Positions 13,983 through 61,812 of a stretch of 64,000 nt of DNA are shown here, piece by piece (position 1 is the stretch's first letter; each line of letters opens with the position of its first letter). Origin of the DNA: Micromonospora vinacea (GTDB taxonomy: Bacteria > Actinomycetota > Actinomycetes > Mycobacteriales > Micromonosporaceae); the NCBI RefSeq assembly GCF_015751785.1, contig NZ_JADOTY010000001.1, positions 7,192,001-7,256,000 of the forward strand, in the 5' to 3' direction. Under the pieces are notes generated by a model. It was given only the letters and a program-made list of their open reading frames with translations. It had not been told where the DNA came from and searched no databases. Both the position numbers and the translations under genes were made by a program.

Positions 13983-13990
13983 CGTCATGC

Positions 13991-14028
13991 CGAAGGGCCG
14001 GACCCCGGTGGTGGGGTCCGGCCCTTCG
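13991..14028. terminator. Bidirectional terminator between recQ and C39 peptidase
   Basis: A perfect 16-bp stem with a 6-base loop (GGTGGT) sits between the two convergent stops at 13982 and 14044, so it can serve both transcripts. Confidence 0.85.
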
Positions 14029-14043
14029 TCGTGGTGCGGTGGG

Positions 14044-22950: not shown

Positions 22951-23667
22951 GTGACCACGGATCCGCTGCTGCTGATGGGCGAGGTGGACGCGGCCACCAG
23001 CCGACTACTCCGTACCGCTGCGTCTTTCGACGCCGCGGACCTTGCCGCCGCGTCGCTGTTGCCCGGCTGGACGCGCGGCCACGTGCTGGCGCATCTGGCG
23101 CGCAACGCCGACGGCTTCGTCAACCTGCTCACCTCGGCCCGCACCGGGGAGGCGCTGCCGATGTACGCCTCGCTGGAGGCCCGCACGGCGGACATCGAAG
23201 CTGGTTCGAGCCGGCCACCGGCCGAGCATCTGGACGACCTGCGCCGCACCGCGGACCTGTTCTCCGAGGCGGTCGCGGCGATGCCGGCCGACGCCTGGGC
23301 GGCGACGGTACAGGCGCGTAAGGGCCCCTGGCCGGCCGCGTTGCTCGTCTGGGGTCGGCTGCGGGAGATCGAGGTGCACCACCTCGATCTGGCCGCCGAC
23401 TACCAGGCCGCGCACTGGTCGGAGACGTTCGCCCACCGACTGCTGCGCGAGGCGGCCAGCCACCACGCCATGGGGCCGACACCGCCGTCGATGGTGCTGC
23501 GCCTCGACGGCACCGAGCACGAGGTGGTGATCGGGGAACGCGTCGGCGCCCCGATCGTCGCCGGTCCCGCCCCCGATCTCGCCGCCTGGCTGATCGGCCG
23601 TGCCGACGGCGCCCCGCTCTCCGTCGTCCCCGACGGTCCCCTGCCTACTCCACCGGAATGGATCTAG
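22951..23667 (+). CDS. Maleylpyruvate isomerase family, mycothiol-dependent enzyme
   Basis: A 238-residue member of the DinB/MDMPI metal-binding superfamily. The N-terminal domain has the family pattern LLPGWTRGHVLAHLARNADG near 36-55 with the first metal histidine, and REIEVHHLDLAADY near 136-149 with the second histidine pair; a C-terminal SCP-like part follows. Known members use mycothiol as cofactor, consistent with an actinomycete, but the substrate here is unknown; there are no gentisate-pathway neighbours, so a true maleylpyruvate isomerase role is not supported. The MBL gene follows after seven bases. Confidence 0.82.
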   Translation: MTTDPLLLMGEVDAATSRLLRTAASFDAADLAAASLLPGWTRGHVLAHLARNADGFVNLLTSARTGEALPMYASLEARTADIEAGSSRPPAEHLDDLRRTADLFSEAVAAMPADAWAATVQARKGPWPAALLVWGRLREIEVHHLDLAADYQAAHWSETFAHRLLREAASHHAMGPTPPSMVLRLDGTEHEVVIGERVGAPIVAGPAPDLAAWLIGRADGAPLSVVPDGPLPTPPEWI

Positions 23668-23674
23668 AAACGTC

Positions 23675-24328
23675 ATGACATACAGCGGAGACGTCACGCA
23701 CGGCGGCGCACCGGCGGTTCGGGAGCTGGACGGGCTGACCATCAGCAAGCTCTCGGTGGGCCCGATGGACAACAACGCCTACCTGCTGCGGTGCACGGGC
23801 ACCGGTGATCAGGTGTTGATCGACGCCGCCAACGAGGCCCCCCGGTTGCTCGAACTGATCGGTGACGGTGGGCTCACCGCCGTGGTGACGACCCACCAGC
23901 ACATGGATCACTGGGTGGCGCTGGAGGAGGTCGTCGCCAAGACCGGTGCGCGGGCGCTGGTGCACGCCGACGACGCGGTGGGGCTGCCGATCGAGGCGGA
24001 GCGGCTGGCCGACGGCGACACCGTGGCGGTCGGCGACTGCGCGTTGGAGGTCATCCACATCAAGGGGCACACCCCGGGTTCGATCGCGCTGCTCTACCGG
24101 GACCCGGCCGGCACCCCGCATCTTTTTACTGGGGACAGCCTTTTCCCAGGTGGCGTTGGCAACACGGACAAGGACCCGGAACGCTTCGCGGCGTTGATCG
24201 GTGACGTCGAGCAGAAGCTGTTCGACCAGCTACCGGATGACACCTGGTTCTACCCGGGCCACGGCAAGGACAGCACCCTGGGTGCCGAACGCCCCGCCCT
24301 CCCCCAGTGGAAAGCAAGGGGCTGGTAA
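23675..24328 (+). CDS. MBL-fold metallo-hydrolase
   Basis: A 217-residue metallo-beta-lactamase-fold hydrolase of the glyoxalase II-like type. The metal motif is THQHMDH near 74-80, followed by a histidine in GHTPGSI near 132-138, the bridging aspartate in FTGDSLFPGG near 151-160 and the last histidine in YPGHG near 193-197. It is probably transcribed with the upstream mycothiol-related gene, which makes a thiol-ester or mycothiol-conjugate substrate plausible but unproven. Codons near 24119-24165 are unusually AT-rich for this genome. Start ATG at 23675 aligns with the conserved N-terminus. Confidence 0.85.
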   Translation: MTYSGDVTHGGAPAVRELDGLTISKLSVGPMDNNAYLLRCTGTGDQVLIDAANEAPRLLELIGDGGLTAVVTTHQHMDHWVALEEVVAKTGARALVHADDAVGLPIEAERLADGDTVAVGDCALEVIHIKGHTPGSIALLYRDPAGTPHLFTGDSLFPGGVGNTDKDPERFAALIGDVEQKLFDQLPDDTWFYPGHGKDSTLGAERPALPQWKARGW

Positions 24329-24430: not shown

Positions 24431-24508
24431 GGGGGCGGGGGCCCGCCGTGCCCGGCGCAGGGATCAAGCCTGACCGCCCGGAGCCGGGTACGGCGGGCCC
24501 CCGCCCCC
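24431..24508. repeat. Conserved-loop palindrome D, copy 1
   Basis: 26-base arms (24431-24456 and 24483-24508) pair throughout with a single G-T wobble. The 26-base loop at 24457-24482, beginning GCAGGGATCAAGCCTGACC, is identical to that of copy 2 at 58931-58956, and CCCACCGCAAC follows the right arm in both. The stems differ in sequence between copies. Located between the convergent MBL and DedA genes, so it may terminate both transcripts; the conserved loop suggests an additional role. Confidence 0.85.
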
Positions 24509-24568
24509 ACCCACCGCAACCCGGCTCCAAACGCCCCCACACCCCCGTGCCCCCGGCACGAAGACAAC

Positions 24569-25177
24569 TCAGCCGACGACGGCGAACAACCGCCGCCGCG
24601 CCCCCAGCAACGCGACGGAGGCCAGCACCAGCCCGACCCCCATCGTGACCACCAGCGGGCTGGGGTCGCCCGGCAGCAGCGCGGCCACCGACCGCGACGC
24701 GGTGCCCAGAGCGAGGTAGAGACCGGCCCAGGCGGCCGCGCCGATCGTCGCGCAGCCGAGAAATCGGCGGTACGACATCCGCAGCCCGCCGGCGGCCAGT
24801 GGCAGTAGCGCGTTGAAGACCGGCAGGAACGGCGCGACGACCATCATCCGGCCGCCACCGCGGCGCAGGATGCCTTCCGCCGCTGTCCAGCGGGTCTCGC
24901 CGATCCAGCCGCCGATGCGGCTGTGGCGCAGCCGGTCGGAGTAGCGACGGCCGATCAGGAAGCTCAGCGACCAGCCGGCCAGGCAGCCGATCAGCACCGC
25001 GGCGAAGGTGGCCAGCCCGGTGCTCGGGCGGCCGACGCCGACCGCGGCGAGGATCGCGATGTCGCCGGGGATGAGGACACCCAGCAGGGGTACGGCGTCG
25101 AAGAGCATGACGAGCCCGAGCGCACCCATCAGCAGCAGAACCGGTAGTTCTCCGATCTGGGCCAGCCATTGCGTCAT
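24569..25177 (-). CDS. DedA family membrane protein
   Basis: A 202-residue integral membrane protein of the DedA/VTT family, which flips or recycles membrane phospholipid carriers and affects envelope stress. Hydrophobic segments occur near 12-34, 40-60, 70-85, 140-160 and 175-195. The family's re-entrant-loop motifs are visible: a glycine-proline turn (LIPGDIAILAAVG near 36-48) and the FLPVFNALLPLAAG segment near 118-131, where members usually carry an arginine after the FxPxxR; here asparagine-alanine occupies it. Lies downstream of a methyltransferase on the same strand. Confidence 0.78.
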   Translation of the reverse strand: MTQWLAQIGELPVLLLMGALGLVMLFDAVPLLGVLIPGDIAILAAVGVGRPSTGLATFAAVLIGCLAGWSLSFLIGRRYSDRLRHSRIGGWIGETRWTAAEGILRRGGGRMMVVAPFLPVFNALLPLAAGGLRMSYRRFLGCATIGAAAWAGLYLALGTASRSVAALLPGDPSPLVVTMGVGLVLASVALLGARRRLFAVVG

Positions 25178-42859: not shown

Positions 42860-43020
42860 GGCCTGTTTCATAAGGGCGGTCGAGCCGAGGCGGAGTCCGG
42901 GCGGCGATCCGGCAAGGCGCGGTTTCGTCCGGATACCGGTGTCGTATCCGGACGAAACCGCAACGCCGCCGGTCGTCGTCCGGGCCCGCCGCAGGCCGGC
43001 CAGTTCTTATGAAACAGGCC
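42860..43020. mobile_element. 161-bp MITE with CTAG target duplication
   Basis: Perfect 15-bp terminal inverted repeats (GGCCTGTTTCATAAG and its complement, 42860-42874 and 43006-43020) are flanked on both sides by CTAG (42856-42859 and 43021-43024). The middle holds a perfect 18-bp stem with a 7-base loop (42919-42961), so the element folds into a near-full-length hairpin. It has no ORF and would need a transposase supplied from elsewhere; CTAG-type duplications suggest an IS5-like source. Confidence 0.85.
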
Positions 43021-54779: not shown

Positions 54780-54838
54780 GACGACGAACGCCGCCCCCCG
54801 ACAGACCGGGACCAGGGTTCGGGCGCCCACGGGCCGCC

Positions 54839-54914
54839 AAGATCGCGCTCGAACCAGGATGTAGTGGTGTTCGGTGCCCGGGAGGCCCCTCCATCATGGA
54901 TCGAGCGCGATCTT
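54839..54914. repeat. Dispersed palindromic element C, copy 2
   Basis: 76 bases, ends AAGATCGCGCTCGAACC and GGATCGAGCGCGATCTT. Matches copy 1 (15507-15582) in length and ends; interior matches it when reversed. Confidence 0.8.
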
Positions 54915-55067
54915 GGGCGGTCGGCGTCAGCCGCGCATGCCGCGCCCACGGCGGCGCCCCGGCCCGCGGGAGCGCCGCGCCCACAACTCGCCTGGGGCAC
55001 CCGAGGCCGCAACTCGCCCGGGCAACTCCCCGCCCGCAGCTCGCGCGGGGCACGGCGGGTACGGCGA

Positions 55068-58272: not shown

Positions 58273-58491
58273 ATGGCCGAACAGAGATTCCGCAAGGGCG
58301 ACCAGGTCTCCTGGTCGGCCCACGGCAGCCGCGCGTACGGCGTGGTGCGGGGGACGATCACCGAGCGGACGCGGATCCGCGGGCGGGCCGTGAACGCGGC
58401 CCCCGACGACCCGCAGTACCGGGTCCGCAGTGACGGCACGGGCCGCGACGTGGCCCACCGCCCCGAGGCGTTGCGTCATGAGCAGAAGTGA
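58273..58491 (+). CDS. DUF2945 / HVA1 TUDOR-like small protein
   Basis: A 72-residue protein starting MAEQRFRKGDQVSW. The pattern KGDQVSWSAHGSRAYGVVRGTITE, with later YRVRSDGTGRDVAHRPEAL, matches the small SH3/Tudor-like DUF2945 family, whose role is unknown. The following DUF3140 gene overlaps it by 14 bases; the two are commonly paired in bacteria, so they probably work together. Confidence 0.83.
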   Translation: MAEQRFRKGDQVSWSAHGSRAYGVVRGTITERTRIRGRAVNAAPDDPQYRVRSDGTGRDVAHRPEALRHEQK

Positions 58492-58825
58492 CGACGGCCG
58501 GGACACCTACCGGGAGTTCACCGAAGCGGTGAACATGAAGCCCGGTGAGCTGTCCACGTGGTTGGAGACCGACGAGTCGAAGCAGGTCGGCTGGCACAAG
58601 GGCGGTCAGGCCGGTGGTGGCGAGTCGGTCGGGCACGAGTCCGGTCGGAAGATCATCAATCTGCTCCGTCGTAAGCGCGGCGACCTGTCCGAGGGCGACT
58701 ACAAGCACATGCGCAAGGTGGTCGGCTACGTACGCCGGCACATGGCGCAGCGCCCCTCGGGCGACGTCCGGGACACCAAGTGGCGCTGGTCCCTCATGAA
58801 CTGGGGCCACGACCCCCTGAAATAA
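58478..58825 (+). CDS. DUF3140 family protein
   Basis: A 115-residue basic protein. The family hallmarks are EFTEAVNMKPGELSTWLETDES near 14-35, ESVGHESGRKIINLLRRK near 49-66 and a C-terminal DTKWRWSLMNWGHDPLK. The central helices and many positive charges suggest nucleic-acid binding, but nothing is established. ATG at 58478 overlaps the DUF2945 gene. No enzymatic motif is visible. Confidence 0.83.
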   Translation: MSRSDDGRDTYREFTEAVNMKPGELSTWLETDESKQVGWHKGGQAGGGESVGHESGRKIINLLRRKRGDLSEGDYKHMRKVVGYVRRHMAQRPSGDVRDTKWRWSLMNWGHDPLK

Positions 58826-58906: not shown

Positions 58907-58980
58907 GGGTTTCGGGGCAGCCCGACCCACGCAGGGATCAAGCCTGACCGCCCGGAGTGGGTCGGGCTGCCCCGAAACCC
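58907..58980. repeat. Conserved-loop palindrome D, copy 2
   Basis: A perfect 24-bp stem (58907-58930 against 58957-58980) with a 26-base loop identical to copy 1 and followed directly by CCCACCGCAAC. It lies 81 bases after the DUF3140 stop and 21 bases before the convergent polA stop. The stem sequence GGGTTTCGGGGCAGCCCGAC differs from copy 1 but pairs perfectly. Confidence 0.87.
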
Positions 58981-59001
58981 CCCACCGCAACCAAGAAACG
59001 A

Positions 59002-61701
59002 TCAGTGATCAGCGCTGTTCCAGTCCCGGCCCAGACCGACGGACACCTCCAGCGGCACCGACAGCGGGTACGCCCCGCCCATCTCCCGCCGGACCAGCGC
59101 CTCCAACGCCTCCCGCTCACCCGGAGCGACCTCGAAGACCAGCTCGTCGTGCACCTGCAACAGCATCCGTGAACGCAGCCCGGCCTCGCCGAGCGCGGTG
59201 TCGACGTGCAGCATCGCCACCTTGATGATGTCGGCGGCGGAGCCCTGGATGGGGGCGTTGAGCGCCATCCGCTCGGCGATGTCGCGGCGTTGCCGGTTGT
59301 CGCTGACCAGGTCGGGCAGGTAGCGGCGTCGACCCAGGATGGTGGAGGTGTAGCCGTCCTGGCGGGCCCGGGCGACCACCTGCTGGAGGTAGTCGCGCAC
59401 CCCGCCGAAGCCGGCGAAGTAGTTCTCCATCAGCCCGCGCGCCTCTTCGGTGCTGATGCTGAGCTGTTGGGACAGGCCGAAGGCGCTGAGCCCGTACGCC
59501 AGGCCGTAGTTCATGGCCTTGATCTTGCGGCGCTGGTCGGGGGTGACCTCGTCGAGCGGCACCCCGAAGACCGACGAGGCGGTGGCGGCGTGGAAGTCGG
59601 CGCCGGAGTTGAACGCGTCGATCAGCGCGTCGTCCGAGCTGAGGTGCGCCATGATGCGCATCTCGATCTGGCTGTAGTCGGCGGTGAGCAGACTCTCGTA
59701 GCCCTCCCCCACCACGAAGGCCCGCCGGATCCGACGACCCTCCTCGGTGCGGATCGGGATGTTCTGCAGGTTGGGCTCGGTGGAGGAGAGCCGGCCGGTG
59801 GCGGCCACCGTCTGGTTGAACGTGGTGTGGATCCGGCCGTCGTCGGAGACCGACTTGAGCAGCCCGTCGACCGTCGACTTGAGCTTGGCCACGTCCCGGT
59901 GGCGCAGCAGGTGGGCCAGCACCGGGTGCGGCTGCTGCGCGTAGAGCCACTGCAGGGCGTCGGCGTCGGTGGTGTAACCCGTCTTGATCTTCTTGGTCTT
60001 CGGCAGACCCAGCTCGGTGAAGAGGATCTCCTGCAACTGCTTGGGCGAGCCGAGGTTGAACTCCCGGCCCACCGCCTCGTACGCGCCCTGCGCGGCGGCC
60101 TTCACCTCGGCGGCGAAGTGGGCCTCCAGCTCGGACAGATAGTGGGTGTCGGCGGCGATGCCGGTGCTCTCCATGGTGGCCAGCACCCGCATCAACGGCA
60201 GCTCCACGCCGGCCATCAGCCGGGCGGACTGCTCGCCGTCGCGGGACAGTTCGGCGTCGATCGCGTCGGCCAGGTCGAGGGTGGCCCGGGCCTGGAGCAT
60301 CAGGTTCTGCTCGACCACCCCCTCGTCGCCGAGGCCGTCGAGGGTGAGCTGGCCGGACTCCGGGACGTCGACCCGCAACTCCCGGTGCAGGTAGCGCAGC
60401 GCCAGGTCGGTGAGGTCGTAGGACCGCTGGTCGGGGCGGGCCAGGTAGGCGGCGATCTGGGTGTCGCGGACGATGCCGGCGAGCTGCCAGCCGTGCGCGG
60501 CGCAGGCCAGCACGGCCGGTTTGCTGTCGTGCAGCACCTTGGGGCGCTGCTCGTCGGCCAACCAGCTGGCCAGGGCGCTCTCGTCGGTCGGGTCGAGCTG
60601 CGCCGGGTCGACCCAGGCCGCCGCGCCGCCGGCGGTGGCCAGCGCGAGACCGGTGATCGAGGCGGTGTGCCGGCGGTTGGGGCCGGTGTCGAGCTTGACC
60701 GCCAACCCGACCGGGGTGCCGGTCGGGACGTGCGTGGTCAGCCAGCCGGCCAGCGCGCCGGGCTCGGTGAGCACCTCGCCGGTGAGGTCGAAGCCGGACT
60801 CGGCCTCCGGCTCAACCGCCTCCAGGTACTGGTAGAGACGGTCGCGCAGGATGCGGAACTCCAGGGTGTCGAAGACCTGGTGCACGGCCTCCCGGTCCCA
60901 CCCCGTCCAGCGGGTGTCCTCCGGGCGCAGCGGCAGCTCCAGGTCGGAGACGAGGCAGTTGATCTCGTAGTTGCGGATCACGTCGGCGAGCCGCTCCCGC
61001 AGGCTGTCGCCGGCCTTGCCCTTGATCTCGTCGGCCCGGGCGATCACGCCCTCCACCCCGCCGTACGTGGTGATCCACTTGGCGGCGGTCTTCGGGCCGA
61101 CGCCCGGGATGCCGGGCAGGTTGTCACTGGTCTCGCCGACCAGTGCGGCGAGGTCCCGGTACTGCTGGGGCGGGACGCCGTACTTCGCCTCGATCGCCGC
61201 CGGGTCCATCCGGGCCAGGTCGGAGACGCCCTTGCGCGGGTAGAGGACGGTGATCTGGTCGTCGACCAGCTGGAACGCGTCGCGGTCGCCGCTGCTGATC
61301 AGCACCGACATGCCCTGGTCGCGGGCCTGGGAGGCGAGCGTGGCGATCACGTCGTCGGCCTCGAAGCCCTCTTTCTCCACCACCGGGATCTGCAGCGCGG
61401 CCAGGACCTCCTTGACCAGGCTCACCTGGCCCTTGAAGTCGGTCGGGGTCTCGCTGCGGCCGGCCTTGTACTCCGCGTACTTGTCGGTGCGGAAGGAGTG
61501 GCGGGAGACGTCGAAGGCCACCACGATGTGGGTGGGCTGCTCGTCGCGGAGCACGTTGATCAGCATTGAGGTGAAGCCGTACACCGCGTTGGTCGGCTGA
61601 CCCGTCGTGGTGGAGAAGTTTTCCACAGGCAGGGCAAAGAAAGCCCGGTATGCCATGGAATGTCCGTCGACGAGAAGCAGGCGCGGTGTCGTAGCTGTCA
61701 C
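59002..61701 (-). CDS. polA: DNA polymerase I
   Basis: Fills repair gaps and removes RNA primers. The product is 899 residues from GTG at 61701. The 5'-3' exonuclease domain (1-300) has LLLVDGHSMAYRAFFALP near 8-25 and acidic metal residues in FEADDVIATLA near 105-115. The 3'-5' exonuclease region (about 320-510) lacks the DxE motif and is degenerate, as in mycobacterial PolA. The polymerase domain has motif A DYSQIEMRIMAH, motif B RRKIKAMNYGLAYGLS and motif C LQVHDELVFEV. Convergent with the DUF3140 gene; D element copy 2 lies between. Confidence 0.95.
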   Translation of the reverse strand: MTATTPRLLLVDGHSMAYRAFFALPVENFSTTTGQPTNAVYGFTSMLINVLRDEQPTHIVVAFDVSRHSFRTDKYAEYKAGRSETPTDFKGQVSLVKEVLAALQIPVVEKEGFEADDVIATLASQARDQGMSVLISSGDRDAFQLVDDQITVLYPRKGVSDLARMDPAAIEAKYGVPPQQYRDLAALVGETSDNLPGIPGVGPKTAAKWITTYGGVEGVIARADEIKGKAGDSLRERLADVIRNYEINCLVSDLELPLRPEDTRWTGWDREAVHQVFDTLEFRILRDRLYQYLEAVEPEAESGFDLTGEVLTEPGALAGWLTTHVPTGTPVGLAVKLDTGPNRRHTASITGLALATAGGAAAWVDPAQLDPTDESALASWLADEQRPKVLHDSKPAVLACAAHGWQLAGIVRDTQIAAYLARPDQRSYDLTDLALRYLHRELRVDVPESGQLTLDGLGDEGVVEQNLMLQARATLDLADAIDAELSRDGEQSARLMAGVELPLMRVLATMESTGIAADTHYLSELEAHFAAEVKAAAQGAYEAVGREFNLGSPKQLQEILFTELGLPKTKKIKTGYTTDADALQWLYAQQPHPVLAHLLRHRDVAKLKSTVDGLLKSVSDDGRIHTTFNQTVAATGRLSSTEPNLQNIPIRTEEGRRIRRAFVVGEGYESLLTADYSQIEMRIMAHLSSDDALIDAFNSGADFHAATASSVFGVPLDEVTPDQRRKIKAMNYGLAYGLSAFGLSQQLSISTEEARGLMENYFAGFGGVRDYLQQVVARARQDGYTSTILGRRRYLPDLVSDNRQRRDIAERMALNAPIQGSAADIIKVAMLHVDTALGEAGLRSRMLLQVHDELVFEVAPGEREALEALVRREMGGAYPLSVPLEVSVGLGRDWNSADH

Positions 61702-61778
61702 GGCAGCGACTCTAGTCCGTCGCACCGACATCCCTGGCCCTCGGCACGGGGTGCCGCGACGCCGAGCCGAACGCCGAC

Positions 61779-61812
61779 GGCCGGCCACCCCCGCGAGGGG
61801 ATGACCGGCCGC
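61779..61812 (-). terminator. Terminator of the liv operon
   Basis: A 13-bp stem (CGGCCGG...CCCC against GGGG...CCGGCCG) with one mismatch and a bulge lies 14 bases after the livF stop. Confidence 0.6.

Follow-up and report, generated by a model that had tools for sequence, protein, structure and literature searches.

The two strongest inverted repeats in a 64,000-nucleotide stretch of the Micromonospora vinacea genome (the window) carry the same 26-nt tip on different stems. The reading that we regard as best, with about as much confidence as doubt, is that they belong to a new REP-like family of loop-invariant hairpins in actinobacteria, the folded form of which would be recognised by a putative factor. 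This judgement is drawn from sequence comparison. The family is apparently undescribed so far. That distant actinobacteria have a near-identical 20-nt tip on stems unrelated to one another implies that a specific reader has so far been overlooked, and the hairpins are a direct handle for finding this putative reader. They are also a model for a repeat that keeps its loop fixed while the paired stem drifts, and they bear on how gene ends, including the one between rpoB and rpoC, are marked in Micromonosporaceae.

Two hairpins with one tip in the window

Copy 1 (24431-24508) consists of 25 Watson-Crick pairs and one G.T pair around a 26-nt loop, exactly the geometry that had been claimed for it from the sequence (Table 1). 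Copy 2 (58907-58980) has 24 pairs around an identical loop. The original prediction that loop and flank recur there, on a stem that differs in sequence yet is still paired, is also correct. The flank CCCACCGCAAC lies one base further from the stem in copy 1 than in copy 2. In a scan that allowed loops of 3-44, these are the top inverted repeats of the window, with scores of 25 and 24 followed by 18 for the next, and the folding z-scores of the hairpins on either strand range from -7.4 to -9.4. No further loop match with up to three mismatches was found in the window, and 100 shuffles of it gave 0. Both copies sit between convergent gene pairs. The distance from stem to stop codon is 60 nt for the VTT/DedA gene and 21 nt for polA.

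Table 1. Features of the two hairpin copies and their neighbouring genes (positions in the window)
Feature	Position	Strand	Basis or remark
Copy 1, 5' arm of 26-bp stem	24431..24456	+	inverted-repeat scan
Copy 1, invariant 26-nt tip	24457..24482	+	loop match
Copy 1 tip, GCA of internal loop	24457-24459		
Copy 1 tip, GGG	24460-24462		
Copy 1 tip, ATCAAGCCTGACCG	24463-24476		
Copy 1 tip, CCC	24477-24479		
Copy 1 tip, GGA of internal loop	24480-24482		
Copy 1, 3' arm of stem	24483..24508	+	
Copy 1, 3' flank CCCACCGCAAC	24510..24520	+	weak conservation among copies
Gene ending toward copy 1, VTT/DedA-domain membrane protein	24569..25177	-	Pfam
Convergent gene on far side of copy 1, metallo-beta-lactamase-fold protein	23600..24328	+	start codon uncertain
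Copy 2, 5' arm of 24-bp stem	58907..58930	+	
Copy 2, invariant 26-nt tip	58931..58956	+	same as copy 1 tip
Copy 2, 3' arm of stem	58957..58980	+	
Copy 2, 3' flank CCCACCGCAAC	58981..58991	+	
Gene ending toward copy 2, polA, DNA polymerase I	59002..61788	-	Pfam
Convergent gene on far side of copy 2, DUF3140 protein	58430..58825	+	Pfam

The window holds other hairpins as well. One at 54837-54916, with a 25-bp imperfect stem, a 30-nt loop and the ends CCAAGATCGCGCTCG / CGAGCGCGATCTTGG, may represent a separate repeat family. Somewhat similar AAGATC/GATCTT ends occur behind polA in one Micromonospora locus (L193) and at one place (L317) in the closest relative, G294. Two more strong short-loop hairpins lie at 13983-14036 (24-bp imperfect stem) and 42919-42961 (18-bp perfect stem).

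Conservation and distribution of the hairpin

Comparison of many copies showed a common architecture: a stem of about 20-26 bp that carries a tip composed of an internal loop, most often GCA/GGA or GGA/GGA on the strand shown in Table 1, followed by a GGG/CCC helix and the apical ATCAAGCCTGACCG. At the sequence level, the tip was shown to be the conserved part and the stem to be generic support. The stem evidence comes from alignment blocks in which 11 or more of the 16 pairs are formed, a filter that kept 160 of 173 blocks and removed 13. Those kept were thinned to 78 rows, and to 75 by dropping three noisy ones, with 46 hand-picked for the main alignment. In the 46 rows, 96.0% of stem cells are paired, versus 39-51% when the partners are slid, and 15 of the 16 stem pairs have changed on both sides. 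The prospect that covariation would be lacking has therefore not materialised, nor are the stems of other copies identical, as in a simple recent duplication: they are unrelated across lineages. Grouped by eye, they form lineage-specific families, two in Micromonospora, another in Actinoplanes and AT-rich ones in the actinobacterial metagenome-assembled genome (MAG) RGIG7097. The idea that a fixed loop on a freely changing but paired stem reflects selection on a folded nucleic acid is now strongly supported, by many copies and by covariation.

The tip is harder to judge, since a 17-nt core pattern had served to retrieve most of the copies. Identity of the 20-nt core in 153 of 165 distinct hairpin copies is a biased figure for this reason, and the conservation is partly by construction. 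One clue that it is genuine is that the loop is intact in all five full copies located via polA, including the one in our genome, since these were found independently of the core pattern. The tip also has internal pairing of its own. Each pair of the GGG/CCC helix is formed in at least 74 of the 75 rows, GGG/CCC has become AGG/CCT in one copy (L303), a compensatory change, and the inner C-G pair is flipped to G-C in a copy from G840 (L370) and in a second copy of an RGIG7097 locus (L252). It had been proposed that CAGG and CCTG pair within the loop, and this does not hold: about 30% of copies have G at loop position 2 without a matching change, and GGG/CCC pairs instead. Of the 165 distinct copies, 84 have GCA/GGA and 44 have GGA/GGA as the three-base internal loop, with rare forms that are fully complementary (GCA/TGC in two, GGA/TCC in one). 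The RGIG7097 copies have GA/GA around GGGG/CCCC, or TGAA/TGAA. Judging from these letters, the internal-loop bases can form sheared G.A pairs on the strand on which the tip reads as in Table 1 (hereafter the tip strand) and pyrimidine mismatches on the other.

The loop is not limited to the two places in the window. In the genome as a whole (7.34 Mb) there are 13 copies with up to three loop mismatches, eight of them exact, with paired arms in all. A covariance model built from 46 copies recovers the same 13 at 64.3-81.1 bits, followed by the next match at 19.6 bits. The family-wide search that the original prediction had called for found a 17-nt core (up to one mismatch) in 159 of 300 sampled Micromonosporaceae genomes and 19 of 44 genera, at 0-29 matches per genome, these being counts of the core rather than of confirmed hairpins. 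The reversed core pattern, used as a control, gave one match each in a handful of Micromonosporaceae genomes. Wider samples have few carriers. The 20-nt core is present in 2 of 396 genomes of the phylum sample (our genome and one congener), and the covariance model has matches in 5 of 394 genomes of the class sample (ours, two congeners, G797 and G840).

A pattern scan of named genomes returned at least 120 stretches, mostly from Micromonospora, Actinoplanes and other Micromonosporaceae among the matches listed. Outside the family, the matches listed include Trueperella bonasi and two actinobacterial MAGs, with 5, 4 and 7 core matches. Thirteen of the Trueperella and MAG loci were fetched and most are hairpins by inspection; one from Trueperella (L260, the same place as L072) is a weak one. 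Besides Trueperella and the two MAGs, two further actinobacterial genomes outside the family have copies. Copies in these distant carriers have nearly the same 20-nt core on unrelated stems. In nine named loci from unrelated phyla the 17 letters lack a stem, so that these are chance matches. An origin from phages or plasmids is rejected as far as viral contigs and plasmid records go: none of the four exact core matches in viral contigs is a hairpin by inspection, and none of the 56 plasmid records with a match to copy 1 covers 80% of it.

No Rfam family accounts for the hairpin, in agreement with the original impression that the loop matches none described. Rfam 15 has no match in the window at the gathering threshold, and with E up to 5 six loci gave sub-threshold hits over the hairpin that were mostly to microRNA models. 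A literature search, judged by titles and the beginnings of abstracts, found no description of the hairpin, and the exact loop letters gave nothing. The idea that CTTGAT could be a rolling-circle nick motif gained no footing among the papers listed for it.

Gene ends and the folding strand

Position relative to gene ends, to which the original prediction had also pointed, has a clear polarity. Genes were called with a custom codon-usage caller in GC-rich loci only. Among 146 places with a usable hairpin, 113 have a gene on the 3'-flank side of the tip strand that ends at the element and 21 have one there that is directed away from it, with nine places called inside genes and three without a gene on that side; 137 places are outside predicted genes. 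Under slightly different overlap rules, the host-side gene ends at the element in 114 of 142 places, at a median of 24 nt (range -7 to 528, 81 within 60 nt), and the gene on the other side does so in 70 of 124, at a median of 146.5 nt (10 within 60 nt), with loci from related species not being independent in these counts. Since the gene on the 3'-flank side ends at the element in most places, the tip strand is usually antisense to the gene that the element follows. Host genes recognised by Pfam are VTT/DedA, polA, rpoB and EF-Tu; those recognised by eye only include cytidine deaminase, aldehyde dehydrogenase and GMP synthase. By inspection, a gene-end position is also common among the copies of Trueperella, RGIG7097 and G797, although there are exceptions, for example L236, L253, L259, L265 and L363. 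At L253, in Trueperella bonasi, a TPP riboswitch (RF00059, 61 bits, positions 1560-1663) lies directly beside a hairpin copy, the loop of which is reversed in orientation relative to the preceding gene.

Could these simply be ordinary bidirectional terminators that were copied around the genome, with the loop kept only by descent? Such terminators would be expected to have long stems rich in GC and to follow stop codons closely, as the hairpins do, in many cases with convergent genes on either side. However, at orthologous places the loop is unchanged while the stem and flanks diverge, and the compensatory change inside the tip also does not fit. Intrinsic terminators do not share the fixed 26-nt tip or the prevailing loop orientation, and the hairpin has no U-tract on either strand: T makes up 1-11% over the 14 positions behind the stem on the tip strand of 134 copies, and T is scattered on the other strand. 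A terminator scan restricted to loops of 3-8 was blind to a hairpin with a 26-nt loop. Two copies between rpoB and rpoC are important here: L064, from Micromonospora sp. KC213, follows rpoB at a distance of 6 nt, and L371, from G840, has the loop in the opposite orientation. Because rpoB and rpoC are normally co-transcribed, the hairpin is not a full terminator there. That the hairpins are ordinary terminators is very doubtful. The protein-binding terminator that had been suggested originally is weakened by these copies and by the lack of a U-tract.

If the folded form is what matters, the next point is which strand folds. Non-Watson-Crick stem pairs in 185 distinct stems, counted in a strand-neutral way, are G.T on the tip strand in 82 cases and on the other strand in 31. 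After grouping into 31 stem clusters the numbers are 59 versus 27 (p 0.0007), and 18 of the 31 clusters lean to the tip strand and 2 the other way. Orthologous flanks have 149 C/T versus 72 A/G differences on the mRNA strand (172 versus 174 in coding parts). Local mutation bias does not explain the wobble lean, because the flank substitutions lean the opposite way. The lean is present in convergent and tandem gene contexts, in a set selected by a score that itself favours G.T on the tip strand. The inner helix points to the other strand: in all 75 rows its wobble is G.U when read on the mRNA strand but A.C when read on the tip strand, and so fits the mRNA strand better. Predicted folding energies do not clearly separate the strands. 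Taken at the level of sequence, the balance suggests that the tip strand, antisense to the host gene, is the one that folds.

What if the hairpin acts in RNA after all? It might be a site in 3'-UTRs, or in antisense transcripts, for a putative RNA-binding protein that affects mRNA 3' ends or stability. This is a real possibility, albeit a doubtful one. The prevailing orientation, the short distance behind stop codons, the conserved tip with its covarying stem and the G.U of the inner helix on the mRNA strand would all be expected, and a role in processing or stability would suit the rpoB/rpoC placement. There are also precedents. The iron-responsive element and the histone mRNA stem-loop have an invariant loop on an arbitrary paired stem, are located in untranslated regions and are read by proteins, although their sequences are different and the strand favoured in the present hairpins is the antisense one. 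That strand preference is the main difficulty, since the stem wobbles lie on the strand antisense to the mRNA. Moreover, the far-side genes are of mixed orientation, so that they offer no regular origin for an antisense transcript, and the hosts, judged by eye, have no common functional theme. The new structured RNA raised in the original prediction is therefore possible, with the wobbles and the far-side genes both counting against it.

Our preferred view is that the two window sites belong to a REP-like family of hairpins dispersed outside genes, the folded tip of which would be recognised by a putative trans-acting protein. The most economical mechanism would be that a protein recognises the tip in its folded state, with the antisense strand as the likelier one. 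If that strand is indeed the more likely one, then DNA or antisense RNA would be involved rather than host mRNA, and the tip strand would more probably be recognised as a DNA hairpin, either extruded or single-stranded. The role of the stem would be to present the tip and nothing more, so that any paired sequence would suffice. Effects on transcript ends might be secondary, by analogy with REPs. Some observations go against this protein-recognised, REP-like family. The gene-end polarity is expected of an mRNA 3'-UTR element as well, the orientation is not strictly kept (one tip is inverted, see below), and, with 0-29 core matches in a genome, the hairpin is less numerous than REPs typically are.

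Inheritance, mobility and known systems

The polA end was reached in 30 Micromonospora loci. Five, including our own, have full elements with an intact loop; L179 and L180 retain a short hairpin that has lost its apex; and no such element is present in the remaining 23, with the L186 contig ending too early to tell. Twelve host-gene ends of our genome were also sought in three relatives, and 10 places were comparable in all three. By our own classification of the resulting 30 comparisons, the copy is kept in 13, the tip is trimmed or reshaped in 3, a piece of stem or flank is left without a copy in 6 and no remnant is recognised in 8. The closest relative, G294, has a trimmed copy or remnant at five of its six places without an intact copy. 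Many absences are thus deletions but not all, and for 8 of the 14 absent copies loss and never having been gained are not always separable. Positions of copies in G237 pair with nearly all places in our genome, in a rough coordinate comparison only. No fresh insertion appeared in the comparison with the three relatives, and there is no clear target-site duplication, with flank similarity of 5.19 within copies versus 5.08 between copies (sd 0.08). Other changes have taken place. At L004 (1501-1526), compared with L323, the whole tip is inverted between our genome and G294 with both flanks in place, which would resemble the outcome of recombination between the two arms. G797 has tandem groups of two or three copies, 73-170 bases apart, in a single orientation and with group-specific stems.

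REPs are short extragenic palindromes with GTAG or a similar motif at the foot of the stem (PMC2817692). The hairpins answer to the description of a repeated extragenic palindrome with clusters, with 13 copies in our genome, 137 of 146 places extragenic and the arrays of G797. As with REPs and BIMEs, the repeats are short, lie near gene ends or between cistrons, are sometimes in spaced clusters and have kept their stems paired. However, the invariant part here is the tip, whereas in REPs it is the stem and foot; a genome has 0-29 core matches, where REPs number more than 100; and the arrays seen have one orientation, unlike those of REPs and BIMEs. The GTAG-like foot motif is absent from the flank and stem-base composition of 134 copies. 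The Y1/RAYT transposase (PF01797) was not found in 7 of 9 carriers tested (G000, G797, G840, G703, G704, G705 and G707), is present in G293 and G288, and also occurs in one of eight non-carriers (G116). Membership of the RAYT-associated REPs is rejected on this basis, PF01797 being absent from our genome and six other carriers, though present in two.

The attC sites of integrons are hairpins with little conservation of stem sequence in which the bottom strand is recognised (PMC2727003). Hairpin geometry and a poorly conserved stem are shared, and the wobble asymmetry here leans to the antisense strand. Differences are that attC sites carry R boxes at their base and vary in terminal structure, whereas here the tip is conserved and the flanks and stem base vary, and that, unlike attC, the hairpins have core genes such as polA and rpoB as neighbours. 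No integron integrase (TIGR02249) exceeded the cut-off in any of 10 carriers, with weaker matches in nine of them and in all 14 control genomes. Integron attC membership is rejected on this basis. The hairpin family works like REPs in placement and like attC in geometry, and is a member of neither.

Nevertheless, the attC-like geometry raises the idea of a folded-strand recombination or transposition site, where a putative enzyme acting on the folded bottom strand would have spread the copies. The preference of the wobbles for the antisense strand, the position at gene ends, the lineage-specific stem families that share one tip, the tandem arrays, the patchy distribution (carriers, our own genome included, number 2 among 396 sampled genomes and 5 among 394) and the in-place inversion of a tip are all in keeping with it. 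Still, the Y1 transposase is missing from our genome and from six of eight other carriers, and none of 10 carriers has an integron integrase above the cut-off. The copy is kept in 13 of 30 compared places, with nine of the other 17 trimmed or a remnant by our own classification, and a clear target-site duplication is lacking. Such a spreading site is very unlikely. It is unlikely, too, that the hairpin is a folded single-stranded DNA site at gene 3' ends, on the antisense strand, with a tip read by a putative actinobacterial recombination or transposition enzyme and a stem for which any palindrome would do. As for the hairpin of a non-autonomous element, the last of the original suggestions, the repeats and tandem arrays fit, but neither a mobilising enzyme nor a fresh insertion was identified.

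The surroundings of some copies are repetitive in other ways. Downstream of polA in L178, a spacer unit that starts with CCCTGACCGGG and ends near GGATCAGGG occurs behind the hairpin more than once. At the tandem groups of G797 (L363-L369), contigs C4, C6, C11 and C20 end in or beside the groups.
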